64,000 bases of DNA from Bombella saccharophila (lineage in GTDB: Bacteria > Pseudomonadota > Alphaproteobacteria > Acetobacterales > Acetobacteraceae): assembly GCF_026385475.1 (NCBI RefSeq), contig NZ_JANIDW010000002.1, forward strand, positions 186,001-250,000, in the 5' to 3' direction. Shown here in pieces: positions 12,112-34,616 of this stretch. Below the pieces are notes generated by a model, which had not been told where the DNA came from, did not search any database, and worked only from the letters and a program-made list of their open reading frames with translations. The number at the start of each line of letters is the position of its first letter. Position 1 is the first letter of the stretch. The translations under genes were made by a program, and so were the position numbers.

Positions 12112-12882
12112 ATGGGACGGATTTCTGGAAAGATCGCATTAGTCACCGGTGGTGGTAGCGGTATTGGTAAAGGCATCGCCGTACTTTTGGCTAAAGAAGG
12201 GGCGAAGGTTATTGTCGCGGACCTCAACCCAAAAGGTGGTGAAGAGGTCGTAGAGGAGATTCGTAAAGCTGGTGGCAAAGCATGCTTCTTACCGCTGAAT
12301 GTGGCGAAAGAAGATGAGTGGAAAAAGACGATGGCCGCCATCAAAGAGCATGATGGCCGTCTGGATATTGTCGTCAATAACGCTGGTATCGCTTTTGATG
12401 GTACGATTGAGAGCACCTCTTTGGAGGAATGGCGGCGTGTGCAGTCCATCAATCTGGATGGTGTCTTTCTCGGTGTGAAATATGCCGTTGCTGCGATGCG
12501 TGAGCTTAATGGTGGGGATGGCGGGTCCATCGTCAATATGTGTTCCAGCTCGGCTCTGGTAGGGATTCCCAACCTCGCTGCTTATGGTTCCTCCAAGGGT
12601 GGGGTGAAGATGCTGACCAAGTCCGCTGCGCTGCATTGTGCGCGTAAGGGCTATAAGATCCGCGTCAATAACGTCTGCCCTGGTTATATTCAAACACCGC
12701 TGGTGGATGAGCTAACACATACGGACAAAGCTGCTTATCAGCATCTTGTGGATATTCACCCTGTTGGTCATCTGGGGACGCCAGAAGATGTGGCCTATGG
12801 TGTGTTGTATCTGGCCTCTGATGAATCCAAATTCGTCACCGCTACCGAGCTGGTGATTGATGGTGGTTACACCTCAGAGTGA
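12112..12882 (+). CDS. Short-chain dehydrogenase/reductase (classical SDR)
   Basis: The 256-residue protein shows TGGGSGIGKG (cofactor loop, residues 14-23), NNAG in IVVNNAGIAF, catalytic Ser in SSSALVG, and Y-x3-K in YGSSKGG, ending with the typical ELVIDGGYTSE. DLNP after the second strand has an acidic residue that suggests NAD(H) preference. Relatives include alcohol, gluconate and 3-oxoacyl-ACP reductases; the substrate is not readable. It stands alone between two intergenic regions and ends in a strong terminator. It could supply a ketoreductase missing from the polyene locus, but nothing in the context supports this. Confidence 0.85.
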   Translation: MGRISGKIALVTGGGSGIGKGIAVLLAKEGAKVIVADLNPKGGEEVVEEIRKAGGKACFLPLNVAKEDEWKKTMAAIKEHDGRLDIVVNNAGIAFDGTIESTSLEEWRRVQSINLDGVFLGVKYAVAAMRELNGGDGGSIVNMCSSSALVGIPNLAAYGSSKGGVKMLTKSAALHCARKGYKIRVNNVCPGYIQTPLVDELTHTDKAAYQHLVDIHPVGHLGTPEDVAYGVLYLASDESKFVTATELVIDGGYTSE

Positions 12883-20632: not shown

Positions 20633-20694
20633 TAAAGGGAGTGGTTGGTGGTGGAGCCGTGCATAGTTATTTATGCAGGGCGTAAACATTTTTA

Positions 20695-21957
20695 TTAAAG
20701 TCCAGATGAGTGTTTAAAGCGTTTTGCAAGCCCGAAGATTACTGTAAAAGCGCGGAAGGGAAGCATAACCCGCCATGAAGGGGCAAAATTTCCCGCTAAG
20801 AGGGCAATGATAGCATCGCGCATTCTAAGAGGTTTGTTTTTAGGGCGCATGAAGAAATAGCGTAACAGCGGGTCATTGATGCGATAGACGAGCCAGCTAA
20901 TTAGTTGCATTTCTTGGCGTGTTTGACGCTCAGCCTTACGGGCGGCTTTGCGGCCCCATTGGGGGCTAAGTAACCATTGGGAGGCAACATGAGCCCCACG
21001 GAGGGCCCCTTTCATGGCTAGCATGACGCCGGAGGAAAAGACGGGGTCCAAAAAGCCGAACGCATCTCCAATGATGAAATAACGCTCCCCCCATGCTTTG
21101 TCGCCTTTATAGGAATAATTGCCCGTGGTGGAGAGGGGGGCGAGGGCTTCGGCTTTGGCCATACGGGCTTGTACGCTAGGGCTTGCTTGCACATGCTTCC
21201 AGAAGAGTGCGTCGAGAGAGCCACCATGATGTTTAAAGCTTTCATGGTCGCCTACAAAACCAACACTCATGACATTATCTGGCAGGGGGATCATCCAAAA
21301 CCAACCGCCCTGGACAAGATGGACGGAGATATAGCCCTCCATCCCTTCGCCTTCAGCGCGTGGGACATTGCGGAAATGGCTGAAGATTGCCGCTTTATTA
21401 TTGCGAAGGTCGCTATATTTCTGCCCATGTTGGCGGAGCATGAGCGTATCTCTCCCAGAGGCATCAAGGAGAAAACGAGGGGCAAAGAGGCGCATCTCGC
21501 CCGTTTCCGTTCTGGCTTCGATTAAAAGGGTTGCGGTGGGTGTGAAAGTTACTTTTGTAACGCGTGTTTTCTCTAGCGTTGTGGCCCCAGCTTTTGCGGC
21601 ATGGCGGAAGAGTATTTCATCAAATTCAGCCCGTCGAACCTGGAAGGCATGGTCCGCTTGTGCATCAATGGCGTAACGAAAGGGGAAGGACATGCGCCCC
21701 TCTCCTGTGTCGGTAACAAATTCTGCACCAGGTTTGTACACGCCTATAGCGGCAACATCGTCCAAGACGCCCAGCTCTTTTAGAATGGGTATATTGCAGG
21801 CGAGCAAGGATTCCCCGATGTGAAAGCGGGGATGCTGCTCTTTTTCTATTATAACGACATCAAGTCCTTGTCGTGCCAAGGTGATTGCCGCTGTGCTGCC
21901 TGCTGGCCCACCGCCGATAATGAGCACATCACAAGGGAGGGGAGAGTTGTTGGTCAT
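20695..21957 (-). CDS. Flavin-dependent halogenase-like FAD monooxygenase of the polyene locus
   Basis: The 420-residue protein has an N-terminal FAD motif GGGPAG (15-20) and the family segment RFHIGESLL (44-52). The WxWxIP signature that marks flavin-dependent halogenases is present as WFWMIP in GGWFWMIPLPD. Lys75 in VYKPGAEF sits where halogenases carry the lysine that forms the halogenating species. DAFGFLDPVFSSG is the second FAD contact. Related proteins occur in xanthomonadin and flexirubin clusters. It may halogenate the aryl head or polyene, or act as a non-halogenating oxygenase or reductase, which also occurs in this family. It is the last biosynthetic gene of the minus-strand operon, 5 bp after the dehydratase. 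Confidence 0.8.
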   Translation of the reverse strand: MTNNSPLPCDVLIIGGGPAGSTAAITLARQGLDVVIIEKEQHPRFHIGESLLACNIPILKELGVLDDVAAIGVYKPGAEFVTDTGEGRMSFPFRYAIDAQADHAFQVRRAEFDEILFRHAAKAGATTLEKTRVTKVTFTPTATLLIEARTETGEMRLFAPRFLLDASGRDTLMLRQHGQKYSDLRNNKAAIFSHFRNVPRAEGEGMEGYISVHLVQGGWFWMIPLPDNVMSVGFVGDHESFKHHGGSLDALFWKHVQASPSVQARMAKAEALAPLSTTGNYSYKGDKAWGERYFIIGDAFGFLDPVFSSGVMLAMKGALRGAHVASQWLLSPQWGRKAARKAERQTRQEMQLISWLVYRINDPLLRYFFMRPKNKPLRMRDAIIALLAGNFAPSWRVMLPFRAFTVIFGLAKRFKHSSGL

Positions 21958-21962
21958 AACAG

Positions 21963-22388
21963 TTATCCAGTTGGTAACATGACAGTCCCCGTCCCGCTCA
22001 GCAGGAGCGTGGCAGAAGGGCTCAAGAGGGAGAAATCATAAATCATGCCATTATGGCTCTGATGTTTCTGCGTGACGGTAATGGTCAGCCTATCCCAATG
22101 GGGGATATCCAGCTTATCGCAATGGATGTGAACATCACGCACGCTTGTTAGCCAGCCTTGGCGGGCTTCATGGGCGGTTAGTGCTCCATGAAGGGCCGCT
22201 GCTTGCATGGCTATCTCTACCCCTGTGATGGGTGGGAGATGGTCTGCGATACGGTAAGGATTCGCGGGGTCATTATGGCATAATATCTGGGCTGTTAGCT
22301 GTGTTGCATCCCAGTGGGTGGCACGGTCTAACAAACAGCTTACCCCTTGGTGAGGAATAAGGGTGAGTATGTCATCACGAGTTAGCAT
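21963..22388 (-). CDS. 3-hydroxyacyl-ACP dehydratase, ApeP-like hotdog protein
   Basis: This is a 141-residue single hotdog domain. LTLIPHQGVSCLLDRATHWD at the N-terminus matches the FabZ/ApeP start (HRxPMLLLD-like), and GVEIAMQAAALHGAL carries the central helix. In aryl-polyene systems ApeP pairs with ApeI as a heteromeric dehydratase; here the likely ApeI counterpart is fused to the AMP-ligase. It would remove water from 3-hydroxyacyl intermediates to build the conjugated chain. Its start overlaps the upstream gene by 14 bp. Confidence 0.8.
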   Translation of the reverse strand: MLTRDDILTLIPHQGVSCLLDRATHWDATQLTAQILCHNDPANPYRIADHLPPITGVEIAMQAAALHGALTAHEARQGWLTSVRDVHIHCDKLDIPHWDRLTITVTQKHQSHNGMIYDFSLLSPSATLLLSGTGTVMLPTG

Positions 22389-23172
22389 GAGCGAGGGCGA
22401 GTCTAAGATGGTTCGCCCCGTAAGGCAAGGTGAGCGTGCAGTCCCGTTTATGGGCTATGGCATAGAGTAGCGGGAGAACATGCCCTGCTGGGTTATGACG
22501 TAGAATGTTCATCATCACGTCTGGGAGAGGCGGTGGCGGAGTGGCCTCACCTTTTCCCTCTTGGAAGGATAATGTGAGCGATAGGGCTCCGTTTGCACCA
22601 GGTGTGAGGATGAACGCACAACTAAATGCGTGGTCTGTGCGGCGTGCTGTGCCTAAAGAGCCGGGGACGGGCGCATCATAAATGCAGAATAGAACGGGGC
22701 GCTGCTCTATATGTGCTTCAATAGCGGCTTTGAGGAGTGCGGCGGGGAGGGTTTCATCATGAAGGCCGAGTGAAACAGCTGGCTGGTGGCTGTGATGGCC
22801 GATCATCCAATAACCTGCTGGTGCATTATGGACGGAATTATGAAAGAGCGAGGGAGATACCGCCCCTCCCGGTGTGGTGAGGGATTCTAAAATCCGGTTG
22901 ATGATAAAGCCATCCCCATTAGAGCTTGCAAAAATAACGGGGAGGTCCTCCGGCTTATAGGGGGTTTGTTGGCAGGCTTCTTCAGCGCAGCGCAGAGCAA
23001 GACGGATAATCTGGCTTGCTCGGCGTTGTTCATTCATCGGGAGGCTCGTAGGAGCGGGAAGTTTTAGCGATTCAGCACATAAAGAGGCTTCACCACGAAG
23101 GATGTTTTGTACGGTTGGCCAACCATGCAGCCCCTCTCCCCAACAGCCAATGGCTTCGATTGTGACGATCAT
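22375..23172 (-). CDS. Ketosynthase-like chain-length-factor partner (ApeC-like)
   Basis: The 265-residue protein resembles the truncated thiolase-fold proteins (beta-ketoacyl synthase N-terminal-like) seen in aryl-polyene clusters: VIFASSNGDGFIINRILE and SPSLFHNSVHNAPAGYW match the family. The active-site Cys of real ketosynthases is absent; the position reads HNAPAGYW. Known ApeC proteins pair with the ApeO ketosynthase as a non-catalytic partner that sets chain length. The start overlaps the ketosynthase stop by 4 bp, which suits an obligate heterodimer. Confidence 0.8.
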   Translation of the reverse strand: MIVTIEAIGCWGEGLHGWPTVQNILRGEASLCAESLKLPAPTSLPMNEQRRASQIIRLALRCAEEACQQTPYKPEDLPVIFASSNGDGFIINRILESLTTPGGAVSPSLFHNSVHNAPAGYWMIGHHSHQPAVSLGLHDETLPAALLKAAIEAHIEQRPVLFCIYDAPVPGSLGTARRTDHAFSCAFILTPGANGALSLTLSFQEGKGEATPPPPLPDVMMNILRHNPAGHVLPLLYAIAHKRDCTLTLPYGANHLRLALAHANS

Positions 23173-24374
23173 GCAAACCTCCCTAGAATGAGGCTGCTAT
23201 TAGTCCCGCCAAAGCCAAAGGCATTATTCATTACATAATCAGAGCGGCTATGACGGGCGGTAAGGAGAATATCGCTGCGAAAGGTAGGGTCAGTTGTGTG
23301 GCTATTCATGCAAGGGGGGAGGTGATGAGTATTGAGTACGATAGCGCAGATCATCGTCTCTAAAATACCAGAAGCTCCTAGCGTATGGCCTGACCATCCT
23401 TTGGTAGAAGAGCATGGCACGCGAGACCCAAAGAGTGTGTAAATCGCACTATCCTCCATTTTATCATTTGCGCGGGTGCCGGTACCATGCATGTTGATAT
23501 AGCCAATCGCCTTGGCGGGGAGGTGTGCGTGTTCTAATGCGCGTTGCATAGCGCGTATGGCCCCTGCCCCAGTGGGATCGGGAGAGGACATATGGTAGCC
23601 ATCACTACTCGCCCCATAGCCGACAAGCCGCGCTCTATAACTTGATGTTTCGAGGGGAAGAGGGCGGGCGTTAGCACGCTCTAATAAAGCAAAACCGGCG
23701 GCCTCCCCAATGGAAATGCCATCACGCTCGGCATCACATGGGCGAGCAGGGTGAGGGGAGATGAGCTCTAGTGAAGTAAAACCTTGGAGGGTCATCCGGC
23801 ATAGGCTATCGGCCCCGCCAACAATAGCGGCATCACATACGCCGCTCGTAATAAGATGAGCGGCATCTATAAAAGCCCGTGTGGAGGAGGCGCAAGCGTT
23901 GGAAATGGTCAGCAAAGGCCCACTAACACCGAGTCGTGCAGCGACATAACGGGGGAGGGAAGAGAGGTCTTGCGTGTTGGTGTAATGAAAGCTCTTCGGT
24001 AGCGTCGGGTCACCGGGCGTACGGGCTGCGTATGCCTCTTCTGCACTGAGAATACCGGATGTGCTTGTACCCATAATGACCGCAATGCGATGAGGGCCAT
24101 AATGCGCAGATGCGGTTTTTACAGTTTCTATGAAGCCATCTGTCATTAAGGCCATATCGGCCAGTCGGTTATTCCGGCAGTCAAATTGTGCGAGATGAGG
24201 GGAGATGATATGCTCCTCCACCCCGGCGACTCGGCCTATATAACCATGCCCTGTTGGTTGAAACTGGTCAGGTTGGAGGGTGTGTTGCTTATTTTGTAAA
24301 CAACGCTGCGTTGCCTCTATGCCGCGCCCCATAGCACTAATAGCGGTCCCTGCGGTGATGATAAGCTCTGTCAT
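23169..24374 (-). CDS. 3-oxoacyl-ACP synthase (KAS II-type, ApeO-like)
   Basis: The 401-residue enzyme has the complete Cys-His-His set: Cys161 in ISNACASST, His296 in INMHGTGTRAND and His330 in KGWSGHTLGASG, with Lys325 before it. It performs the decarboxylative condensations that lengthen the polyene. It is the only catalytically intact ketosynthase seen in the locus; canonical aryl-polyene clusters carry a second one (ApeR). It overlaps both neighbours by 4 bp. Confidence 0.85.
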   Translation of the reverse strand: MTELIITAGTAISAMGRGIEATQRCLQNKQHTLQPDQFQPTGHGYIGRVAGVEEHIISPHLAQFDCRNNRLADMALMTDGFIETVKTASAHYGPHRIAVIMGTSTSGILSAEEAYAARTPGDPTLPKSFHYTNTQDLSSLPRYVAARLGVSGPLLTISNACASSTRAFIDAAHLITSGVCDAAIVGGADSLCRMTLQGFTSLELISPHPARPCDAERDGISIGEAAGFALLERANARPLPLETSSYRARLVGYGASSDGYHMSSPDPTGAGAIRAMQRALEHAHLPAKAIGYINMHGTGTRANDKMEDSAIYTLFGSRVPCSSTKGWSGHTLGASGILETMICAIVLNTHHLPPCMNSHTTDPTFRSDILLTARHSRSDYVMNNAFGFGGTNSSLILGRFA

Positions 24375-26686
24375 AGCTTCGCTCTCATTGATGCTTTGGG
24401 AGGCATGGCCCCCATAAGGAGGAAGCTAAAGATCAACGCCAATAAGGCCCCGCAGGAGATGGTGAGGCCAATTTCTCGCAAGAGGGGCGTTTGGCAGCTG
24501 GCGAGGATAGCAAAGGAAGAAACAGTCATCAGGTTACAGGTCAAGAGTGTGCGTAGGGTACGGGTGCGTTCGGCATCATCTAATTGAGGTCGTCCAAAAA
24601 AGAGAGCGTAATCTATGTTTACACCTAGCACAAAGGCGAGGGCGACAATATGGATGATTGAAAAAACAGGGTTATGAAGGCGCAATAAGGCTAATGTACT
24701 TAGGCCGGTGAGCGTTAAGGTGAGGGCCACACGGCCAACGCGCCCTGGGCTTTTAAGGCAGAAAAAGAGGGTTATGAGGGCAAAACCTATCCCGATGATG
24801 AGCCATAAGGCCGCTTGTTGAACATAAGGGTGAAGCAGGTCGCCTACGGCTGTCCTCATATTCACCAGCAATATTGTAGGGTCGTGCTGAGCATCACGAC
24901 GCAACCATTCGGCTGCTTCTGGCGTGCGGGGGATAAGCAGGCCGTACCAACTGCCATGACGGGGAAAGAGTAGGAGTGCAAGGCGATAAGCGAGCGTGGT
25001 GTTAGTGAGGTCTTCTATTCCTAGGGATGGTTGTTGTTGTGCGGAGGCAACGTCCCGGGGGATAGTGGCGAAGGCATCAGCTGAGAAGGGAGAGCCTTGT
25101 AACGCTGTATGTAGATTAGCTGTGATAAGTTTTTCTGGCGGGAGGCTCTCCACCCTGTGTTGCTGGCGGGCTTTGCTGGGGAGTAGTAACGCAGCAGCTT
25201 CTATATCATGTGAGGGGGGGAGACGCTCTAGAATGGCTTCTTCCCGCTGAAGGACAGTTTCACTATCAGCGGCGTGGATAACACCTAACAGGCCTGCTTG
25301 GGGGGCTCCAAGTTGTTGACGGAGTTGGCGGTCCGTTTCGAGCATGGAAGGGGGTATGGGGTTGAGGATTTGGCCTTGGCGTTCGATTTGAAAAGGATGA
25401 AGCCAGAGGAGGGCCAAAGCTAAGGGGGCAGCAAGAAGGCAGAGCATACGATAATGCCGTAATTTTTCCCAGCGTAAGAGCGAGCGGGAAATGCCTTGAT
25501 GATAGGCTGCTAAGTCGGCCTGGGTGATGAGATGGGGCAGCACCCAGATGGTCAAGCATGCGGCGGTGAGGATGCCGATGGCTGAGAACAAACCGAGTTG
25601 CATAAGCCCCGGCAAGCCGCAGAAGATCATACTTAATAGGCCGATGATGGCTGTCAGAGCGGCTAATTTCAGGCTTGTACCGATACGGCCTAAGACAATG
25701 GGGATGGCCTCGCCTTTATCACGATGGCCGAGGAGGAGAACGGGATAATCTAACGAAACCCCCAGCATAGTCATGCCAAACCCTAGGGCAATGCCATGTA
25801 CCCAGCCAAAGAGGAGGTGTAGCCCGAGCATAGCGAGCGAGAGAGACAGCAAAAACGGCACACCAATGGCGGCTAGGACCCAAAGGGAGCGAAACCGCCA
25901 ATATAGGATTATAATAACGAGTGAGAGAGAGAGTAGGGCCAGGCGGTCCATATCATGCCGCAGGGATTGTGCGGCAAAAAAAGAGAAAGCTGGTGTGCCT
26001 GTAAGGGTGAGCGTGTAGCCTTTATGCCCGTCTACACTTTGGGCAAAGGCTTGCATAATGGTGTGATGAAGTTGCGTGAGCTGGGCGGTATCAAGGCTGG
26101 GATGGCGGAGATGGAGCAGCATCAATGTGGCGTGATGGTCCGTTGTGAGCCATAAACCATCTTTGCTCTGAGGTGGGTTTACTTCATTGAGACTTGCCAA
26201 GTAATCCCCATAAGCCCCTGTAGGGTCATGTAGGCCGACATCTTCCACCACGGGGGCTGCCATAGATTGTAGGAGGTCGTAAAGCTGGTTTAGGTCGGCT
26301 CTGAGAGCCGTTGGGGTGAAGAGGCGGGTATGGTCATGAGGGGCAAGACCATAACGATGAGCAAAAAGAAGGGGCTGGTCCTTTTGCCATGAGAGGGCGG
26401 TCGGGCCATCAAGAATAAGGTTGAACTGCCCTCCCGCGACTAAAGCGTCATGAAAGCGATGACCTATGTTGAGGAGAGTGGCTTCATCATCGCCTTTGAT
26501 AGAGGCGAGCATAAGGGATTGCGTCGTCCCGTTATTAAGCTCGTCAAGCAGGAACTGAGATGTATCGTCATGGGGCCGGGGGAGGAAGGCCCGCATATCC
26601 ATGCGTAAAGGGATGCAGGAGAATGTACCTATGGCTACGGCGATGGCGCAAAAAACTGCGAGTAGGAGGGGGAGGCGGCGTCTCAT
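24371..26686 (-). CDS. MMPL/RND-family exporter of the polyene locus (ApeM-like)
   Basis: The 771-residue membrane protein has two repeats, each with one helix, a large periplasmic loop and a block of five or more helices, the usual MMPL layout with about 12 helices. LGFGMTMLGVSLDYPVLLLGHR and AFVLGVNIDYALFFGR are the paired conserved Asp-Tyr helices (SLDY, NIDY) that relay protons. It probably moves the finished polyene lipid across or out of the inner membrane. Its start overlaps the LolA-like gene by 4 bp, matching a hand-over from exporter to periplasmic carrier. Confidence 0.85.
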   Translation of the reverse strand: MRRRLPLLLAVFCAIAVAIGTFSCIPLRMDMRAFLPRPHDDTSQFLLDELNNGTTQSLMLASIKGDDEATLLNIGHRFHDALVAGGQFNLILDGPTALSWQKDQPLLFAHRYGLAPHDHTRLFTPTALRADLNQLYDLLQSMAAPVVEDVGLHDPTGAYGDYLASLNEVNPPQSKDGLWLTTDHHATLMLLHLRHPSLDTAQLTQLHHTIMQAFAQSVDGHKGYTLTLTGTPAFSFFAAQSLRHDMDRLALLSLSLVIIILYWRFRSLWVLAAIGVPFLLSLSLAMLGLHLLFGWVHGIALGFGMTMLGVSLDYPVLLLGHRDKGEAIPIVLGRIGTSLKLAALTAIIGLLSMIFCGLPGLMQLGLFSAIGILTAACLTIWVLPHLITQADLAAYHQGISRSLLRWEKLRHYRMLCLLAAPLALALLWLHPFQIERQGQILNPIPPSMLETDRQLRQQLGAPQAGLLGVIHAADSETVLQREEAILERLPPSHDIEAAALLLPSKARQQHRVESLPPEKLITANLHTALQGSPFSADAFATIPRDVASAQQQPSLGIEDLTNTTLAYRLALLLFPRHGSWYGLLIPRTPEAAEWLRRDAQHDPTILLVNMRTAVGDLLHPYVQQAALWLIIGIGFALITLFFCLKSPGRVGRVALTLTLTGLSTLALLRLHNPVFSIIHIVALAFVLGVNIDYALFFGRPQLDDAERTRTLRTLLTCNLMTVSSFAILASCQTPLLREIGLTISCGALLALIFSFLLMGAMPPKASMRAKL

Positions 26687-27291
26687 TGCGGGGTGATGAT
26701 GGTCTCGGTGCTATCGCCATTTGCTTGGATGAGGCGTGTACGTTCTAGCACGTTATTGCGCCCCTCTAGTTGGACGCGTTGGATAATCTGCGCAACCTCT
26801 GATGTGCGGGGGGTGAGGAGGAGCGTCCAATGTCCCATATCGCCTTGTGCGCTGAGATTATAGTAGGTTTGTAACAAAGTTACGTCACCTTGGAGGGGGC
26901 CGCGGATTGTTGCTGCCATAATTTGCATAGTTGGGTTTATGTGCAGGGGGATGCTCCGCATAGGGTTTTGCCCATGTTGGAGCTGCACCATATCGCCTTC
27001 CAAAATAAAGTGATCTTGCACAGGGGTGAGGGTGTATTTCTCTATATGGTCAGGGGGTACGAAGCGGAGCAGCCCTTCGCTATGGAGGGGTTGCTTTAAC
27101 GCATGGAGCTGGCGTGTTTCACGAAAGTGATTATCCCGTTGGGAGACCAGCCCAATATGGTGAATGATCTCTACGGCTAGGGCCTCATTAGATGTGGAGG
27201 AGGCTATGGGGGCGTGGTCTTGCCTGTAGAGGGGCTGGGCTAGAGCAGGGCTGAAGGTAAGGCAGCAGAGAAGAAGAGAGAGATATTTCAT
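26683..27291 (-). CDS. LolA-like periplasmic carrier (ApeL-like)
   Basis: The 202-residue protein has an N-terminal signal peptide MKYLSLLLCCLTFSPALAQP with cleavage after ALA. The mature part is beta-rich with LolA-type features: LHSEGLLRFVPPDHIEKYTL, FILEGDMVQL and later TLLLTPRTSEVAQII. LolA-like proteins of aryl-polyene clusters are thought to carry the lipid to the outer membrane. An upstream frame extends to 27561 but overlaps the acyltransferase gene; ATG 27291, five bases before that gene's stop codon is passed, is the reasonable start. Confidence 0.8.
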   Translation of the reverse strand: MKYLSLLLCCLTFSPALAQPLYRQDHAPIASSTSNEALAVEIIHHIGLVSQRDNHFRETRQLHALKQPLHSEGLLRFVPPDHIEKYTLTPVQDHFILEGDMVQLQHGQNPMRSIPLHINPTMQIMAATIRGPLQGDVTLLQTYYNLSAQGDMGHWTLLLTPRTSEVAQIIQRVQLEGRNNVLERTRLIQANGDSTETIITPQ

Positions 27292-27295
27292 AAGG

Positions 27296-28195
27296 TCAGA
27301 GACCTTCTTCCCAGAAGTCGAAAAAATTGAACCAAGCATAAGGGTTTTGCTCACATAAATCTTCCATCCAGCGGGCATAGGCGAGGATGTGCGGATGTAA
27401 AGTGGACTGTGTTTCCCCTTGTGAGAGAGTATCAGTAAGGCGGCGGCATGCAATATGGTAAGAGCCATTTTTCTGCCGAATGGCCGAGACAAGCACAACC
27501 GGGGCGCCTGTACGGGCAGCAAGTTGATGCGGCCCTGCGGGAAGGCGGGCGGTTTGCCCAAGAAATGTCACAGGGACAGAGCGGCTATCATCATGAGCGC
27601 GGTCGGCTAATATGCCCACTACCTCCCCTTGTTTAAGGGCGTTGAAGGTTGTGAGCATACTATCTGCATGGCCAAGCTCAATGAGGTCGGCTTGAAAGGT
27701 CGGGGCAAGGGTTTCAATCAAACGTGAGGTTTCCCCTAGGAACCGTCGATACATCAACATGCGAAAGCGGACAGGGGCATCTATGCCGAAATAACGGAGG
27801 ACATCAAAAGAGCCAATATGTGCCCCCATGATGATGCAGCCTTTTTGTTGTTTTAGGGCGTCTAAGAGGTAGTCGCGCCCATGGATATGGATTTTATGGG
27901 GTGGGAAACGTCCACTGAGAAGATAAATGCGGTCTAAAATATTGGTGCTGTAAGCATAAATATGTGCAAGGACCATACCATAATGGGGCTGTTGACCTCG
28001 CCCAACATTATGGAGATGAGTAAGATAGCGCCATGAGGCACGGCGCACCGAAGGATAAAAGGTGGCGTAATAAAGGGTTGCAGGCCAGCGGAATAACGCT
28101 GTGATGTGGTACCCCAAATGCAGTGCAACCCAAATGAGCAGCCGGCCGATTACTAGATTACCCTTTTCTGGGCGGAGCCATGTGTTGGCGCTCAT
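27296..28195 (-). CDS. LpxL/HtrB-type acyltransferase of the polyene locus
   Basis: The 299-residue protein has a hydrophobic N-terminus (about 14-48) that may anchor it, and the acyltransferase HX4D motif His126-Asp131 in GAHIGSFD, followed by RFRMLMYRR and GEVVGILADR (substrate-binding blocks). It resembles the lysophospholipid/lipid A acyltransferase family members encoded in aryl-polyene and xanthomonadin clusters, which are thought to attach the polyene acyl chain to a lipid anchor. The start overlaps the AMP-ligase stop by 4 bp. Confidence 0.82.
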   Translation of the reverse strand: MSANTWLRPEKGNLVIGRLLIWVALHLGYHITALFRWPATLYYATFYPSVRRASWRYLTHLHNVGRGQQPHYGMVLAHIYAYSTNILDRIYLLSGRFPPHKIHIHGRDYLLDALKQQKGCIIMGAHIGSFDVLRYFGIDAPVRFRMLMYRRFLGETSRLIETLAPTFQADLIELGHADSMLTTFNALKQGEVVGILADRAHDDSRSVPVTFLGQTARLPAGPHQLAARTGAPVVLVSAIRQKNGSYHIACRRLTDTLSQGETQSTLHPHILAYARWMEDLCEQNPYAWFNFFDFWEEGL

Positions 28196-29841
28196 AAGGA
28201 TGGGCCTTTAGCCGTACCACGGAGGATGGTGCTTGTGGTGGTATGGCCGTCATGATGATGCAAACTAAAGCGGATCCGGCCATCGCCTAAAGCACTGGAG
28301 AGAAGATGGAGTGGTTCCTCCGGGCGGACAATAGAGAGAAATTTTACATTTTCGATAAAATGGGGTTTGAGCTTTAAGCGTGTAAAGACTTCCTCCAGCA
28401 GGACAATGCCTGGCACAGTAGGATTCTGGGGAAAATGGCCAGGGAGGGCAGGGTGTGTAGCTGGGATGGAAAAAGGTGGATAGGAGCGTTTTTCAGCATA
28501 ATCGCGGATGAGGCTCTCCCAAGCGTGCCGTGTAAGTTTGCCAATGGCATTGCGTGGTAAATGCGGCAGGCGGACAAGCCGGCGTGGCATAAAGGCGGGG
28601 TCAATATAATGGCGCAGGGCCCGCATAAGAGCAGTAGTATCGTCTATTGAGCTGACAATAAAGGCTTGCAAGCGCGTGGGTTCTGGCTTGTCGTTTTGGA
28701 GCTCTGCTTCACTAAAGAGGGGGGCGAAGCAGCCATCTAAGACCCCGTCTAGTTGGAGGAGTGCTTTGTTAAGGGCTCCATAAGAGGTGCGTTTTCCCGC
28801 GATTTTGAGGAGGTCCCCTTTGCGGCTCATGAGCGTGAAATGGCGTGGCCCTTTTTGGGTGATAATGTCATTAAGGGGGTGAGGTGTTGCATAGGGAGCG
28901 GTGCAGATATAGGCCTCTGCATCTGTTGAGGTTGGGTCTGCAGTTAGGGTTACCCCGTCGTAAAGTTGCCATGGGTCGGGGTTTATTGTGCGGCGGCTAG
29001 CAATGGAGCCTGTCTCGGTAGAGCCATAAATCTCCATCACTGGGGCGTGGAAAAGGGTTTCTGCCTCAAGAGCGAGGTCATGGGGCAGGGGAGCAGAGGC
29101 GGAGATAATGCGCCTTACTTCTGGCAGGGCGATACGTGCTGTGGTGAGGGAGCGTAGATGCACTGGCGTTGTGATGAGTGTATGTTCTGTGGGTATGTGA
29201 GCGGCTAGTTTTTCGACATCGCGGGGGAAGAAGGAAGGGCCGCTTGCTGTGGCTGTGTGGGTATGGAGGCTTTGGAGGATGAGTGTCTCAAACCCGTACA
29301 TATGGTAGGGCGGTACCGTACCTAGCATAGTCGTAGTGGTGGGATGATGTGGGGCGAGGAGGGGTAGGGCTGCGTGACTGCGAGCGACAAGCTCCCCCCA
29401 ATATTTAACATGCATTTTAGCTTGGCCCGTACTGCCTGAGGTAAAGACGTAGGCCGCTTTATAGTCCACAGCAAGGTGGGGATTATCTGATTGTGTTGCC
29501 TTGAGTGTGGCCAGAGGTGGGAGGGACAGATTCACCAGCTCTTCTGGCAACGCTGTAGGGCTGCTGCAAAGGGCGTTATGTTCCTTTTGTAAGGTCAGTA
29601 ATTGCGAAGCTGCGTGATTGCTGGAGAGTATGCAATATTGTCCCTTTAGCAGGCTTGTTAAAAAGACGATGGTAAAGTGTAGAGGGTCGGTATGGAGGTT
29701 GATAATGGGGCGTTCTGGCCAATGATCAGCCAAGGCCCATGCGAAGGAGAGAAGTTGCTCACCGCTAATAGGCCCGGCCATCGTGTAAAAAATAGGGCGT
29801 GCTGGTGCGGTGATGAGGGATAGATCAAAAGAGGCATGCAT
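28192..29841 (-). CDS. Fused AMP-ligase (acyl-activating) and FabZ/ApeI-like dehydratase
   Basis: The protein has 549 residues. Residues 1 to about 445 form an acyl-adenylating enzyme: P-loop FTSGSTGQAKMHVKYW (133-148), MEIYGSTETGSIASR, and a C-terminal hinge with PRNAIGKLTRH. Residues 457-549 are a hotdog domain with HPALPGHFPQNPTVPG, the FabZ/ApeI active-site stretch (His463). The first half would activate an aromatic acid (such as 3- or 4-hydroxybenzoate) and load it on the ACP; the second half would dehydrate 3-hydroxyacyl-ACP intermediates with the ApeP-like protein. In Escherichia coli these functions are separate genes (apeH, apeI). The frame is continuous across the junction. Confidence 0.85.
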   Translation of the reverse strand: MHASFDLSLITAPARPIFYTMAGPISGEQLLSFAWALADHWPERPIINLHTDPLHFTIVFLTSLLKGQYCILSSNHAASQLLTLQKEHNALCSSPTALPEELVNLSLPPLATLKATQSDNPHLAVDYKAAYVFTSGSTGQAKMHVKYWGELVARSHAALPLLAPHHPTTTTMLGTVPPYHMYGFETLILQSLHTHTATASGPSFFPRDVEKLAAHIPTEHTLITTPVHLRSLTTARIALPEVRRIISASAPLPHDLALEAETLFHAPVMEIYGSTETGSIASRRTINPDPWQLYDGVTLTADPTSTDAEAYICTAPYATPHPLNDIITQKGPRHFTLMSRKGDLLKIAGKRTSYGALNKALLQLDGVLDGCFAPLFSEAELQNDKPEPTRLQAFIVSSIDDTTALMRALRHYIDPAFMPRRLVRLPHLPRNAIGKLTRHAWESLIRDYAEKRSYPPFSIPATHPALPGHFPQNPTVPGIVLLEEVFTRLKLKPHFIENVKFLSIVRPEEPLHLLSSALGDGRIRFSLHHHDGHTTTSTILRGTAKGPSL

Positions 29842-29858
29842 GGATGAGGCAAATCGCG

Positions 29859-30155
29859 TTACGATGGACGATGAGCCTCAATATAATGTGCAAGGGAGCG
29901 TAATGAGTGGAATATCTCACGATTGTTATCATCATGTGATTCCAGCTTGATGCCGTACTGTGTGTTGACCATCAGAGCAATTTCAAGCACATCGATGGAA
30001 TCGAGCCCCAACCCTTCCCCAAAAAGGGGCGTCTCTGGGTCGATGTCGTGGGGGTCCATATCAAGCTGCACGGCGTCCACAAGATGTGTTGCAACCTCGT
30101 GCTCAAAGGGGGTTTGTTCATGCAAAGGGGCAGTGGCTGTCACTGAAAGAGGCAT
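29859..30155 (-). CDS. Acyl carrier protein of the polyene locus
   Basis: A small acidic protein (98 residues from ATG 30155) with the phosphopantetheine site Ser53 in GEGLGLDSIDVLEIA. The DSxD form and the helix following it match the ACPs of aryl-polyene clusters. It carries the growing chain. The start is uncertain: upstream frame extends to 30194, and the conserved fold begins only near residue 18, so internal GTG or TTG starts are possible. It is the first gene of the minus-strand operon, almost touching the divergent membrane-protein gene. Known clusters encode two ACPs; only one is seen here. Confidence 0.85.
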   Translation of the reverse strand: MPLSVTATAPLHEQTPFEHEVATHLVDAVQLDMDPHDIDPETPLFGEGLGLDSIDVLEIALMVNTQYGIKLESHDDNNREIFHSLRSLAHYIEAHRPS

Positions 30156-30163
30156 CCATTTAT

Positions 30164-30832
30164 ATGAAGGGCAAAAGCTGTGACCTCTTAACACCGGGTG
30201 TAGCAGGCAGCAAGAGCCGTAGGGCTTGGCTTTGGCGGATTGTCATATTTGCTAGTGGTGTAGGAGTGGTGAATCTGACAATCGGAGGGCCTCAGTGGCA
30301 GGCAGTATGTGTCGGGTTGGGTATGATGATGCAGCTTGTGATGTTGCTGCCATACCGGGTGTGTTGGGGTTATGGATTATTATTGTTTATAGGGGTAGCC
30401 GGTGGGTTATGGCCGGGCTTTGTGCGGCTGGGGGACCAGCTCTTACTTTATGCGCTGGCTTTGCTGGGGCCGTTTATGATGTTTGTACGCTCCTTACGGC
30501 GGGGGCAGACGGCGTTTATCACACAATTAGCTGAGGCAGTACACGGGCCTTTGCGCCAGGATATACGGCGTTACACGATCATCCTAACATGGGTGTGGAG
30601 CGGCTTTTTTATGATCGCCTTGGGGGCCCCGGTTATTTTGTGGCTCTATGCGCCACAGCAAGGATGGTGGCATATCCCCATACGCGGCGGTACGTTGGGC
30701 GTGGCATTGCTTTTATTTTGTGGTGAGATGCCTCTGCGGCGGGTGATTATCCGTCACTATCAACATGCCACATTAAAGCAAAATATTATGGCAAGCCGTG
30801 TTGTTTTTATGAGAAAGAACTCTCTATTCTGA
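30164..30832 (+). CDS. Polytopic membrane protein, COG4648-like (ApeG-like)
   Basis: The 222-residue protein has about six hydrophobic segments (from WLWRIVIFASGVGVV to GTLGVALLLFCGE), a conserved-looking central loop RSLRRGQTAFITQLAEAVHG and RYTIILTWVWSGFF, and a basic C-terminus. This pattern fits the membrane protein of unknown function found in aryl-polyene clusters. AAAGAGG lies about ten bases before ATG 30164. It begins 8 bp from the divergent ACP start, so the promoters for both directions must lie within the opposing N-terminal regions. Family assignment is by pattern and context. Confidence 0.65.
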   Translation: MKGKSCDLLTPGVAGSKSRRAWLWRIVIFASGVGVVNLTIGGPQWQAVCVGLGMMMQLVMLLPYRVCWGYGLLLFIGVAGGLWPGFVRLGDQLLLYALALLGPFMMFVRSLRRGQTAFITQLAEAVHGPLRQDIRRYTIILTWVWSGFFMIALGAPVILWLYAPQQGWWHIPIRGGTLGVALLLFCGEMPLRRVIIRHYQHATLKQNIMASRVVFMRKNSLF

Positions 30833-30872
30833 TAGGTCTTAAATAGTTCACTCATATGTGATGAAATAGGCC

Positions 30873-31604
30873 ATGTCTGATAGTACATTTTCTTCACAAC
30901 GCTCATCGTCTTTTGTGCCTGGGGACATGCGGGAGGGCATTATGGCGCGTGGTTTATTTGATGACGTGGCAATATATTATGATCGGATAAATAGCTTATT
31001 TTCTCTAGGGACGGGTCGTTGGTATCGTCGTCGTATGCTCAGGCGTGCGGGGTTGCAGCCGGGGCAAACTGTTTTGGATGTGGCTATTGGCACAGGCCTC
31101 ATCGCGCGGGAGGAGGTAGCTATTATAGGGGCGGAGCATGTTATAGGGGTGGATGTAAGTTGGGGTATGCTCCAGCAATGCCAACGCGCTTTGCCTATTT
31201 CGCTTGTGCAGGGGGATGTGATGTCCCTTCCTTTTGGCGATGAGAGTATTGACTTCCTTAGTCTAGGTTATGCGTTGCGTTTGATGGAAGATTTGACTCA
31301 AACCTTCGCTGCTTGCCGCCGTGTGTTAAAACCGGGCGGGCGGATTTTGGTCCTGGAGATTGGGCGGGCGGAGAGCCGTCTATTGCATAAATTATTGCAT
31401 ATTTATCTAGGACGGGTTGTTCCATTTTTATCGGGGCAAGCGGCGTATCGGGCGAGTCGCGGCCTGATGAATTATTATTGGGATACGCTAGAGAGCTGTG
31501 TATTTCGCCACGATGTGATCGCAGCGATGGAGCGTGCGGGGTTTCATAATATACGGTGCGAGGTCTCTTGTGGTGTGTTTCACGCATATATGGGGTGTGT
31601 GTAA
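30873..31604 (+). CDS. UbiE/COQ5-family methyltransferase, copy 1
   Basis: The 243-residue SAM-dependent methyltransferase has YYDRINSLFSLGTGRWYRR at residues 35-53, the diagnostic UbiE start; SAM motif I VLDVAIGTGLIARE (68-81); and the later LKPGGRILVLEIGRA. UbiE enzymes C-methylate quinone rings. Copy 2 lies 46 bp downstream with strong similarity throughout. A chorismatase follows, so this pair may act on a hydroxybenzoate-derived product (polyene head group) or serve ubiquinone synthesis. In the post-motif region this copy reads LSLGYALRLMED where copy 2 keeps the commoner ALRHV, hinting that copy 1 has diverged. Confidence 0.82.
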   Translation: MSDSTFSSQRSSSFVPGDMREGIMARGLFDDVAIYYDRINSLFSLGTGRWYRRRMLRRAGLQPGQTVLDVAIGTGLIAREEVAIIGAEHVIGVDVSWGMLQQCQRALPISLVQGDVMSLPFGDESIDFLSLGYALRLMEDLTQTFAACRRVLKPGGRILVLEIGRAESRLLHKLLHIYLGRVVPFLSGQAAYRASRGLMNYYWDTLESCVFRHDVIAAMERAGFHNIRCEVSCGVFHAYMGCV

Positions 31605-31650
31605 GAGGGATAGTAGATGCATTTATTGTCGGATGTGCTAAGGAGGCGGC

Positions 31651-32385
31651 ATGTCTAATTCTCCTAAATCTCCTCATCCTGTTTTATCGCGCTTTTATAC
31701 ACATCGTGAAGAACGCGAAGAATTCGTTAGTGGTTTGTTTGATGAAACAGCCAGCCATTATGACCGTATCAACGCTTTGTTTTCGTTAGGGACGGGTGGT
31801 CGTTATCGCCGGCAAATGTTGCACAAGGCGGGGTTAAGGGCAGGCCAAAATGTTTTAGATGTCGCGGTGGGGACGGGCCTTGTTGCGCGCGAGGCAATGG
31901 CCATTGTGGGCGCAGAAAAGGTGACCGGGCTGGATATGAGCTTTGGGATGCTCCAGCAATGCCGTCATTCTTTACCTATTTCTCTTGTGCAAGGGAATGC
32001 GATGTCATTGCCTTTTGCTGATGGGAGTATCGATTTCCTCAGCATGGGCTATGCGTTGCGGCATGTAGCGGATTTACAGCAAACGTTTGCCTCTTACCAT
32101 CGTGTGTTGAAGCCTGGCGGTCGTGTTTTGATTTTGGAGATCAGCCGGGCAGAGCATAAAATCGTTCAAAAGCTTTTGCAGTTTTATTTAGGGCGTGTTG
32201 TGCCGTTTCTCTCTGGTGTGGCGGCCTCGCGGGCTAGTCGTCGTTTGATGGATTATTATTGGGATACGATAGATCATTGTGTGTCTTATCAGGAGATTAT
32301 GGCCGCGATGGAAGCTGCGGGGTTTCAGGATGTGCGCTGTGATGTCGCGTTGGGGATTTTCCGTGCTTATATGGGGCGCGTCTAA
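31651..32385 (+). CDS. UbiE/COQ5-family methyltransferase, copy 2
   Basis: The 244-residue paralogue of the preceding gene has HYDRINALFSLGTGGRYRR, motif I VLDVAVGTGLVARE (68-81) and GYALRHVADLQQTF, closer to standard UbiE than copy 1. The start has a strong RBS (AAGGAGG). It ends 3 bp before the chorismatase GTG start, so the two are probably translated together. Whether this copy is the housekeeping ubiquinone enzyme or a pathway-specific methyltransferase cannot be decided; a search for another ubiE elsewhere in the genome would help. Confidence 0.82.
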   Translation: MSNSPKSPHPVLSRFYTHREEREEFVSGLFDETASHYDRINALFSLGTGGRYRRQMLHKAGLRAGQNVLDVAVGTGLVAREAMAIVGAEKVTGLDMSFGMLQQCRHSLPISLVQGNAMSLPFADGSIDFLSMGYALRHVADLQQTFASYHRVLKPGGRVLILEISRAEHKIVQKLLQFYLGRVVPFLSGVAASRASRRLMDYYWDTIDHCVSYQEIMAAMEAAGFQDVRCDVALGIFRAYMGRV

Positions 32386-32388
32386 GCT

Positions 32389-33414
32389 GTGACATCGTCT
32401 TTTAAGCGGCGGGTATTGGTGCCCCATTATGCGAGGGGTACGCCTGTTGAGACAGCGCATAACCCTCTGGCTTGCGTGCGTTATGGGGGCGATGAAGCTG
32501 GGGTAGAGGTCGCACAGGGATGTGTTTTTATGACCCTTCCCGGCCCTTCGCCTGTTCTTTATGAAACATGGCATCCTATGCAGATAGGAGAACAACAGGC
32601 TGAGGGCGCAGCGTCTATTATACCGCGTATGGTCGGTAAGGAATCTGGCATAGGTTGGAGCTGCGAAGGTGATGTGTTGTTTGCAGCTTTTTGGGTGCAA
32701 GACCAGCCAGAATTATGCGATGCAGTACAAACACATTATGAGCGTTTGATCACATTAAGCCGGCAGAAGGGCTTCCCCCATATTTATCGGATGTGGAATT
32801 ATTTAGGGGCGATCAATCAGGATAATGAGTATGGGGAGGAGCGCTATCGCGATTTCTGCCGCGGGCGAGCGCAGGCATTCGATGCGCTGGGGGTAGAGCT
32901 TACGGCCCTACCTGCTGCGACAGGGATTGGGTTGCCCGCGGGAGGAGTGGCTGTTTATCTTATTGCTCATCGTGTCATGCAGGGCGTGAATGTAGAAAAC
33001 CCATCTCAGTTGCCTGCTTATCATTATCCACCACGTTATGGGCGGCGGTCCCCGTCTTTTGCACGGGCTACAGTGATGGAGGGTGAGAGCCAGACAGTCC
33101 TTTACCTTTCTGGCACGGCTAGTATTCGTGGGCATGAATCGGTTGGTCATACGCTTGATGAGCAACTTGCCATTACAATTGAGACAATCCATAGCCTGCG
33201 TGCGGCAGCAGAGAAACGCTTTCCGTGTCTTCAGGCTGGTCGGTTTGAGAGCATGAAGCTCTATGTGCGTCATCCTAAGGATGTGTCTGTTGTGCAAGCG
33301 GCAATAGAGCGTGCTTTTCCGTGTCCTGCTGGTCAAGCCCCGCTCTTGGTGGCAGATATTTGCCGAGCGGAGCTGTTGGTAGAGGTAGAGGGTATTCTCT
33401 TAGCGCGTCATTAG
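32389..33414 (+). CDS. Chorismatase (XanB2/FkbO/Hyg5-like), hydroxybenzoate-forming
   Basis: The 341-residue protein resembles the chorismatase family: GIGWSCEGDVLFAAFW, the central IYRMWNYLGAINQDNEYGEERYRDFCRGRAQAF (shown by its core RMWNYLGAINQ), LPAATGIGLPAGG and LYLSGTASIRGHESVGH, a Rid/YjgF-like tandem fold. Family members turn chorismate into pyruvate plus a dihydroxycyclohexadiene carboxylate, 3-hydroxybenzoate or, for XanB2, both 3- and 4-hydroxybenzoate, the precursors of xanthomonadin and ubiquinone. Which product is made here is not readable. The start is GTG 32389, coupled to the methyltransferase. The 3' end overlaps the convergent DyP gene by 15 bp. Confidence 0.82.
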   Translation: MTSSFKRRVLVPHYARGTPVETAHNPLACVRYGGDEAGVEVAQGCVFMTLPGPSPVLYETWHPMQIGEQQAEGAASIIPRMVGKESGIGWSCEGDVLFAAFWVQDQPELCDAVQTHYERLITLSRQKGFPHIYRMWNYLGAINQDNEYGEERYRDFCRGRAQAFDALGVELTALPAATGIGLPAGGVAVYLIAHRVMQGVNVENPSQLPAYHYPPRYGRRSPSFARATVMEGESQTVLYLSGTASIRGHESVGHTLDEQLAITIETIHSLRAAAEKRFPCLQAGRFESMKLYVRHPKDVSVVQAAIERAFPCPAGQAPLLVADICRAELLVEVEGILLARH

Positions 33415-34605
33415 CAGGTCCTCACCGAGATAATGACCTTTACGATAGCCGGGGCAGGCAAACAGACCGCTGCCAATATGGGTTGTGTATTGGTTCATCA
33501 TATCGAACTTTGCCATACGCTCAAAAATGCGGGTGAAGGCTTTGCGTGGGTCTTGCTGATAGGCAAGGAACATCAAGCCAGTATCAAACTCATTGCCCTG
33601 TCGCCACGGGGGCCAACGCTCTGCGATGTAGCTTAGGCCATTATCGTAGGAGTAAGCGCGCCTTAAAAACTCGGCTCCGCCATTCTCTTCTGGGGCGGCA
33701 AGGCGTGCATGGGAAGCCTCCGCCGTGATGGGATTACCGTATTTATCGGTTTGCTTGAGGGTGAGGGGCTCAAACTCATGATGCCCCCCAATAGGGGCCC
33801 CGCTGCGTTTTTGCCGCCCCATTGTTTCCTCTTGGAAGCTGGTTTTCGTGCGGTCCCAATGCTCTAGGGCAATGCGGATAATCCGGGCAACGAGATAGGT
33901 CCCACCCGTCATCCATGCTTTATCATCATCTGCGGCCCAGAGGACGCGCTTAGCAACAGCAGGGTCGGCAATATTGGGCTGCATGGTCCCATCTTTAAAG
34001 CCCATAAGATTGCGGCCCGTTTGGTGCGGCCCAAAATCAGGGAGGAAGCCCGTTTGTGCCCAACGTGGTGTGGCGATGCCATCAGCAAGGCGGGTGAGGA
34101 TGCGGATGGCATGAAAAGCCGTTTGCGGATTATCGGCACAGCTTTGGATGCACAAATCGCCCCCCGTATGGGCGGGGACAAGCTGGTCCCCTGTAAAGCG
34201 GGGGAGGTCGGCTAAGGGGGCGGGCCGTTGGGCAGCGAGGCCGAACCTATCTTTCCCCTCTTTGGTAAAAAGGGTGGGGCCAAAGCCAAAGGTCAGCGTT
34301 AAGGCCTGATGAGGCAGGCCGTATGTTTCATCAGAATCAACAAGGTCGGGGATGGGCTTCTCTGCCATAAGAGCCGCTGCGGCGTCCGTCCATCGTTGCA
34401 TAAGCTGGGCAACATCATGGCGGTTCTCGGTCGTGATATCCAGCGTGAGGAAATAGAGAAAAGGCAGTTGTGGCAGGGTAATACCTGGTTGATGGAGGAA
34501 CTCTGCGGGGGATGTCGCCCAAGCATGGCGCGGGGCGAGGCAGCCCAGCCCAGCCATACTAAGAGCAGTGCCTAGAGCTTTACGGCGTGTGAGGAGATGA
34601 GCCAT
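33400..34605 (-). CDS. Tat-exported DyP-type heme peroxidase (EfeB-like)
   Basis: The 401-residue protein has a twin-arginine signal near its start (LTRRKALGTALSMAGLG, cleavage near AWA-TS). The DyP signature GxxDG is present as GFKDG (202-206), followed by EEETMGRQKR-like context and the heme-pocket region GGTYLVARIIRIALEHWDR. It is a periplasmic peroxidase acting on dyes, phenols or porphyrins; EfeB relatives take part in iron uptake, but efeU and efeO are not here. ATG 34605 is preferred over GTG 34614 (AAGGGTG upstream). It is 11 bp downstream of the NHL-type protein gene on the same strand. Confidence 0.88.
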   Translation of the reverse strand: MAHLLTRRKALGTALSMAGLGCLAPRHAWATSPAEFLHQPGITLPQLPFLYFLTLDITTENRHDVAQLMQRWTDAAAALMAEKPIPDLVDSDETYGLPHQALTLTFGFGPTLFTKEGKDRFGLAAQRPAPLADLPRFTGDQLVPAHTGGDLCIQSCADNPQTAFHAIRILTRLADGIATPRWAQTGFLPDFGPHQTGRNLMGFKDGTMQPNIADPAVAKRVLWAADDDKAWMTGGTYLVARIIRIALEHWDRTKTSFQEETMGRQKRSGAPIGGHHEFEPLTLKQTDKYGNPITAEASHARLAAPEENGGAEFLRRAYSYDNGLSYIAERWPPWRQGNEFDTGLMFLAYQQDPRKAFTRIFERMAKFDMMNQYTTHIGSGLFACPGYRKGHYLGEDLLMTR

Positions 34606-34616
34606 GGCTTTCACCC

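Follow-up and report, generated by a model that had tools for sequence, protein, structure and literature searches.

Aryl-polyene systems and the Bombella locus

In Lysobacter, deletion of the ketosynthase (KS), of the chain-length factor (CLF)-like ORF16 or of the acyl carrier protein (ACP) is reported to abolish the yellow xanthomonadin-like pigment, and deletion of the chorismatase lowers pigment by about 90%, a defect restored by 3-hydroxybenzoate (3-HBA) (PMC3691225). In Azoarcus, arcA encodes a halogenase and arcB a chorismatase of the XanB2 type (PMC3949708), and XanB2 of Xanthomonas makes 4-hydroxybenzoate (4-HBA) for ubiquinone (PMC5069965). Within the Acetobacteraceae, aryl-polyene clusters have been counted among acetous (28 of 96) and acidophilic (19 of 43) strains (PMC8776678), and antiSMASH identified an aryl-polyene cluster in Bombella apis, scored at 14% to xanthomonadin (PMC8262860). 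Here, we describe such a locus at positions 20695-33414 of a 64,000-nucleotide stretch of DNA (contig NZ_JANIDW010000002.1, positions 186,001 to 250,000; hereafter the window).

The locus consists of 13 tightly packed, real open reading frames (ORFs) in two divergent arms, an arrangement recognized in the original prediction, which counted only eleven or twelve genes. Its gene content, intactness and conservation, together with the absence of any cluster-type ketoreductase match, make it fairly likely that the locus works, as a reduced aryl-polyene locus of the xanthomonadin type served by a ketoreductase from outside the cluster. As no ketoreductase of its own was found, the locus is classed as a variant that works like type II aryl-polyene loci and not as a complete member. 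The assignment to an aryl-polyene/xanthomonadin-like type II polyketide synthase (PKS) locus in an acetic acid bacterium held, with all the named genes present. The same prediction named only Gammaproteobacteria and Xanthomonas pigments as known settings of aryl-polyene clusters, which prior reports from Acetobacteraceae and B. apis show to be too narrow, and it overlooked the absent ketoreductase. This kind of pigment locus has already been reported and is ordinary in outline; what is new is a locus without a cluster ketoreductase, a chorismatase that groups with Hyg5 and FkbO, and probably the dedication of that chorismatase to pigment.

Absence of a cluster ketoreductase

Ketoreductases were surveyed in 150 genomes drawn evenly from a larger group and called Acetobacteraceae from their named relatives. 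A KS over the family cut-off was present in 57 of these, and KS-flanking stretches were fetched for 55, the other two being the window genome (G000) and G118. In 44 of the 55 loci, a cluster-type short-chain reductase adjoins the dehydratase; 43 were recognized above 240 bits by a profile built from 11 of the same reductases that it scored, and one (L141) by tblastn (261 bits; profile score, 180). Five of the 44 (L144, L167, L170, L173, and L174) have a KS-reductase-KS layout and score 244-262. The remaining 11 loci have no adjoining reductase (L108, L110, L112, L140, L142, L143, L147, L148, L154, L155, and L157), with L154 stopping soon past the dehydratase and L155 yielding only KS and its partner.

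A counterpart of ApeQ, Lysobacter ORF13 or ArcH was found in none of the eight Bombella loci, that of the window included, and the Saccharibacter loci hold no ketoreductase as far as they were fetched. In searches of whole genomes, the cluster-ketoreductase alignment has best matches of 182-189 bits in all eight Bombella genomes with the locus and of 188 and 192 bits in the two Saccharibacter genomes, and no cluster-type ketoreductase was found in any of them. The corresponding values are 186 bits for G022 (L112) and 180 bits for G130 (L108), compared to 450 bits (G025), 386 bits (G100), and 429 bits (Acetobacter cibinongensis) in genomes with a cluster ketoreductase; the G100 enzyme is encoded outside L110, the stretch fetched around its KS. 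Of the 11 loci without an adjoining reductase, this search covered L108, L110, and L112. The absence of the ketoreductase is thus common to Saccharibacter and Bombella, which are not the only ones to show it. In a ketoreductase tree, all 15 cluster ketoreductases fall together (97/93). Because the 10 short-chain dehydrogenase/reductases (SDRs) from the genomes' own complement sit on long branches, this tree gives hardly any information beyond the scores. Over-long ORFs account for four of the 15, and these were omitted from the 11-row profile and from alignment A1 (10 of the 11).

The best ketoreductase match in the window genome is an SDR located beside FabF. Another SDR, located in the window at 12112-12882, was considered as a moved ketoreductase and rejected: among NCBIfam models it comes closest to an alcohol dehydrogenase (294 bits; cut-off, 400), and the cluster-ketoreductase models give it 123-133 bits. 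The Lysobacter ketoreductase is reported to be required (PMC3691225), and a substitute should therefore act in Bombella; the housekeeping FabG (G000:C1:640650) probably stands in for the cluster enzyme.

From this gene set we infer the chemical steps, the role of FabG, and the product and its place. The chorismatase would convert chorismate to 3-HBA, which the ligase, with a putative aryl substrate, may load onto the ACP, and KS and CLF would extend the chain with malonyl units. The beta-keto groups would be reduced by the outside ketoreductase, most likely FabG, and the two cluster dehydratases would then give a polyene with conjugated double bonds. Ring or chain may be decorated by the halogenase and by one or both UbiE-like methyltransferases. 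The acyltransferase may attach the polyene to a lipid, which LolA and the MMPL exporter may then carry to the outer membrane.

Conservation and loss within Bombella and Saccharibacter

The closest named relative among the matches listed is Bombella sp. ESL0385, with 99% identity for both KS and chorismatase; by sequence, the window genome belongs with Bombella. An aryl-polyene KS is present in eight of 11 genus genomes (G000, G118, G150-G153, G155, and G156). The core gene order is kept in eight of the 11 as well as in two Saccharibacter loci, one of which (L190) is cut within the halogenase, and this recurrence indicates that the locus is not a chance reading. The chorismatase is found in nine of the 11, the ninth (G032) having a partial copy that matches residues 108-339; neither the nine-gene arm nor the membrane protein was found in the G032 stretch. 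G154 and G157 yielded nothing but the neighbouring LysE and autotransporter genes, plus LysR in G154.

Between the window and Bombella locus L101, the 11 genes compared contain no stops. The proportion of synonymous differences (pS) is 0.71-0.79, near saturation, and that of nonsynonymous differences (pN) is 0.095-0.340, which indicates that the locus is under purifying selection, both dehydratases included. The comparison with Saccharibacter L190 shows one stop, in the membrane-protein alignment. The halogenase is the best-kept long gene, with approximately 82% identity across Bombella groups and 85% to L190 over residues 3-75 only, where the L190 locus ends.

Several points weigh against a working locus with an outside ketoreductase. 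Deletion of the cluster ketoreductase in Lysobacter is reported to give white cells (PMC3691225), and FabG was thus no replacement there. The window ligase scores below every NCBIfam cut-off, and the absence of the locus from three of the 11 genus genomes (G032, G154, and G157) means that it is dispensable. The white Lysobacter mutant (PMC3691225), along with the lack of a ketoreductase in the eight Bombella loci and the fetched Saccharibacter loci and of a cluster-type one in those genomes, would also fit a product short of a full polyene, in which KS and CLF, acting without a ketoreductase, would yield an incompletely reduced or short aryl polyketide for halogenation and export. We consider this rather unlikely, as the two dehydratases, which require a reduced substrate, are maintained by purifying selection, and the remaining core genes are present and intact.

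Origin of the chorismatase

The chorismatase (32389-33414, plus strand) is of the FkbO/Hyg5 family, matching PF21168 at 113 bits, TIGR04444 at 242 bits (cut-off, 325), and the Hyg5 structure 5ag3 with an expectation value (E) of 1e-54. A scan of named genomes gave 566 confirmed relatives, of which the best 80, ranked by likeness to the query, were taken. In a tree of 92 rows, ten chorismatases of acetic acid bacteria (Bombella, Saccharibacter, A. cibinongensis, and Asaia astilbis) form one group (100/94), which joins 11 actinobacterial and reference rows including Hyg5 and FkbO (99/95) and stands apart from the Xanthomonadaceae and betaproteobacterial groups. An 81-row tree agrees with the Hyg5/FkbO grouping (99/97). 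Four other family rows (Acidisoma, its duplicate G130, G086, and G100) group with the betaproteobacterial chorismatase type, the G081 chorismatase is a long unplaced branch, and the weaker relatives G093, G065, and G062 fall far outside. Approximately unbiased (AU) tests rejected a union of the ten rows with the four other Acetobacteraceae rows (p 0.007); placement with the betaproteobacterial clade was borderline (p 0.064), and placement with the xanthomonad clade, implying kinship to XanB2, was not rejected (p 0.276). By the best tree, the chorismatase of acetic acid bacteria appears to be related to the actinobacterial Hyg5/FkbO enzymes; in view of the AU tests, its transfer is treated only as part of the tentative scenario below.

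Hyg5-type (CH-II) enzymes are described as having a characteristic glycine and cysteine and a catalytic glutamate, with Gly-164 as a further residue (PMC7170507). The window chorismatase has G242, C325, and E332, while FkbO has alanine at the first two positions. As proof of the Hyg5 type these residues were discarded: every one of the 81 rows carries the glycine, the cysteine and the glutamate, which therefore cannot tell CH-II and CH-III apart. One further locus, L264 (JAHREJ010000002.1), named Bacillus subtilis SK7B5, has aryl-polyene genes and, near them, a chorismatase grouping with that of Stenotrophomonas rhizophila; it is probably a contaminated or misnamed assembly.

A quick KS tree places the window KS among family and acetic-acid-bacterium rows (58 rows, 100), with five further family rows next to betaproteobacteria; its 250-bit limit left out L144, L167, L170, L173, and L174 and loci without a full KS. 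Judged by these trees, KS and chorismatase probably have different histories. A limited literature search found no paper joining Acetobacteraceae or aryl polyenes with chorismatase.

UbiE-like methyltransferases and ubiquinone

Two UbiE-like methyltransferases are located upstream of the chorismatase on the plus strand, copy 1 (an extra copy) at 30873-31604 and copy 2 at 31651-32385. Both fall under the TIGR01934 cut-off of 158 bits (132 and 152 bits, respectively), and they share 67% identity. The METHYLTRANSFERASE pair occurs only in G000, G155, and G156 of the 11 genus genomes. Saccharibacter has a single UbiE-like copy, which is closest to copy 2 (78% identity). Copy 1 groups in the tree with the Saccharibacter copy (93/80, unstarred, on a long branch), and from this grouping the duplication may be older than the Bombella-Saccharibacter split, followed by losses.

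The plus arm could instead serve ubiquinone, with the chorismatase supplying 4-HBA, as XanB2 is reported to do for Xanthomonas (PMC5069965), and the UbiE-like enzymes methylating quinones. The lack of a UbiC match in all 11 genus genomes and in 147 of the 150 family genomes speaks for such a role. However, a canonical UbiE is encoded elsewhere in all 11 genus genomes (in G000 at G000:C1:606742, 266 bits), and similar UbiE-like genes occur near KS or chorismatase in the pigment loci of other family members and of Beta- and Gammaproteobacteria. The chorismatase itself was not found in two of the 11 genus genomes, and a third keeps only the part noted above. No match to the chorismatase family was found in 118 of the 150 family genomes, and, with UbiC lacking as well, much of the family probably obtains 4-HBA from another source, so that the Bombella chorismatase need not serve ubiquinone. 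A main role of the chorismatase or the UbiE-like pair in ubiquinone synthesis was therefore rejected as improbable. Given three of 11 genomes without the locus and none with UbiC, the Bombella chorismatase is probably dedicated to pigment.

Gene content of the locus

The minus-strand arm (20695-30155) contains nine genes, from the halogenase through the ACP, with neighbours overlapping by at most 14 nucleotides (nt) or spaced by at most 17 nt. The plus-strand arm (30164-33414) contains the membrane protein, the UbiE-like pair, and the chorismatase, with gaps of 40, 46, and 3 nt. A decaying relic heading for loss, as in G032, G154, and G157, is very improbable even with the locus absent from three of 11 genus genomes and a small genome (1.91 Mb), because 13 of 13 frames are open and the Bombella pair has no stops and a pN far below pS in the 11 genes compared.

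The KS (23169-24374) is of the aryl-polyene type (NF006618, 493 bits; cut-off, 407), with its active-site cysteine in ACAS at 160, and its CLF-like partner (ketoacyl-synt_2; 22375-23172) matches PF13723 at 83.2 bits. The closest solved relatives of the two are the two chains of one entry, the KS heterodimer 6qsp (ApeO:ApeC), with 6qsp_A for KS and 6qsp_B for the partner (E 5e-7). In a plasmid search with the KS, covering 1281 records, the best place was always below 60% identity.

The locus has its own ACP and adenosine monophosphate (AMP)-dependent ligase, both with family-model scores over cut-off. The ACP (29859-30155) reaches 114.3 bits on NF006617 (cut-off, 70; scored on 29859-30140) and contains GLDSI, and the ligase (28192-29841), probably an aryl ligase, reaches 55.4 bits on PF00501 (cut-off, 29.9). 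The predicted two dehydratases were confirmed, except that the second is not a separate gene but a FabZ-like domain at the ligase C-terminus, with the FabZ motif GHFPQNPTVPG at 468 and a weak likeness to FabZ (E 0.02). The other is an ApeP-like dehydratase of hot-dog fold (21963-22388). PF22817 (ApeP) is matched by nine of its 26 aligned proteins, with E values of up to 0.1 and a best value of 3e-6. The window protein has neither a Pfam match nor a PDB match by sequence. Its AlphaFold model (predicted local distance difference test, pLDDT, 94) has as its top Foldseek match the Xenorhabdus doucetiae dehydratase ApeI:P (6qsr_B), yet a remote one at 19% identity.

The best solved relatives of the flavin-dependent halogenase (20695-21957) are halogenases, ChlB4 first (E 3e-53), with PltA and CmlS also among its relatives, and it matches Trp_halogenase at 99.2 bits. 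It contains YKPGA at 74, WFWMIP at 219, and FLDPVFSSG at 302, presumably reflecting the flavin adenine dinucleotide (FAD) fold, the WxWxIP and FxxPxxSxG motifs, and the active-site lysine. The export set was found by Pfam scan and consists of a lipid A-type lipid acyltransferase (27296-28195; PF03279, 58 bits), a LolA-like carrier (26683-27291; PF19574, 49.4 bits; likeness to flexirubin LolA2, 48 bits, cut-off 125), and an MMPL-family exporter (24371-26686; PF03176, 54.3 bits). With ATG codons at 27291 for LolA and 30155 for the ACP, the scanned proteins (198 and 93 residues) were a few residues short.

The membrane protein (30164-30832, plus strand) belongs to no named family and has no Pfam or NCBIfam match; its model is all-helical (pLDDT 75, the first third poor), and its gene adjoins the ACP in many, but not all, loci. 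The ATG codons of the ACP and the membrane protein are only 8 nt apart (30156-30163), and the promoters of both arms are therefore probably inside coding sequence. A promoter scan was uninformative (12 sites versus 13.1 expected).

Neighboring genes

An autotransporter of 1647 residues (14962-19905) adjoins the locus; compared with G118, G032, and G154, its N-terminal part is approximately 36% conserved and its C-terminal part 54-61%. The spacer between LysE and the halogenase is 5 nt in the window (20690-20694), while sister species have LysR there and G151 and G118 also DoxX. At the other end, a convergent DyP-type peroxidase gene (33400-34614; below the cut-off of TIGR01412, its nearest model) shares 15 nt with the end of the chorismatase gene. 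It was not found in five other Bombella genomes, within the 2-6 kilobases (kb) fetched past their chorismatase. Approximately 19 kb before the window (G000:C10:167065), a frame of 2159 residues contains a ketosynthase domain and is probably the type I PKS reported in B. apis (PMC8262860).

Possible history and implications

One tentative scenario, possible rather than probable, is that the Saccharibacter-Bombella ancestor dropped its cluster ketoreductase and FabG took over, after the starter supply had passed at an earlier stage to a chorismatase of actinobacterial (Hyg5) ancestry with 3-HBA as its sole product. The pigment made by these bee-associated bacteria would then be a 3-hydroxyphenyl polyene that is both halogenated and methylated. 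If true, pigment and fatty-acid synthesis would share one reductase, and pigment synthesis would be freed from the shared 3-HBA/4-HBA enzyme of xanthomonads. Loss of the ketoreductase may also fit genome reduction in bee symbionts. B. apis has been studied for protecting bee brood against fungi (PMC8262860). The Lysobacter and Azoarcus loci are described as carrying a dedicated ketoreductase (PMC3691225, PMC3949708), whereas Bombella appears to keep the pathway under selection without one. A lineage without it makes testable whether a housekeeping FabG serves a type II polyene synthase, and the natural locus-free strains G032, G154, and G157 provide a comparison set within the genus. The locus is of moderate interest, for the question of a reductase acting in trans and for the origin of its starter enzyme.

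Comparison with known systems

The combination of an own chorismatase, a halogenase-like protein, and twin UbiE-like genes had been called unusual. For chorismatase with halogenase this does not hold in a set of 73 chorismatase loci that were fetched from organisms other than acetic acid bacteria (tblastn, E 1e-4; many contigs are cut). A halogenase-like gene lies in the fetched flank of 24 of the 73, and Azoarcus has both enzymes in arcA/arcB. A UbiE-like gene lies in that of 14, and this common gene, near KS in several family genomes, is here duplicated. The 35 loci with at least three other aryl-polyene genes include 14 with a halogenase-like gene, 28 with a cluster-type ketoreductase match, and five with a UbiE-like gene. 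Chorismatase with halogenase is common, and a UbiE-like gene in addition is less so.

The antiSMASH cluster of B. apis is probably the same locus (L105/L189); the available text of the Acetobacteraceae and B. apis reports mentions neither the missing ketoreductase nor the chorismatase (PMC8776678, PMC8262860). Like arcA-X of Azoarcus sp. BH72 (arcuflavin), the Bombella locus has a halogenase, a chorismatase (XanB2-type in Azoarcus), a methyltransferase, LolA, an acyltransferase, an exporter, and a KS with a partner, which in Azoarcus is N-terminal and KS-like (PMC3949708). Azoarcus alone has two unlinked loci, the reductase arcH, a glycosyl transferase, a resorcinol branch, and separate dehydratase and ligase genes (arcS and arcT) (PMC3949708). 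With ORF1-17 of Lysobacter enzymogenes and xan of Xanthomonas, the Bombella locus shares the KS and CLF-like partner, ACP, two dehydratases, acyltransferase, lipoprotein carrier, exporters, and chorismatase, and with Xanthomonas also the halogenase (PMC3691225). Unlike these loci, it lacks a ketoreductase and has a UbiE-like pair and a chorismatase that, in the best tree, groups with Hyg5 and FkbO.

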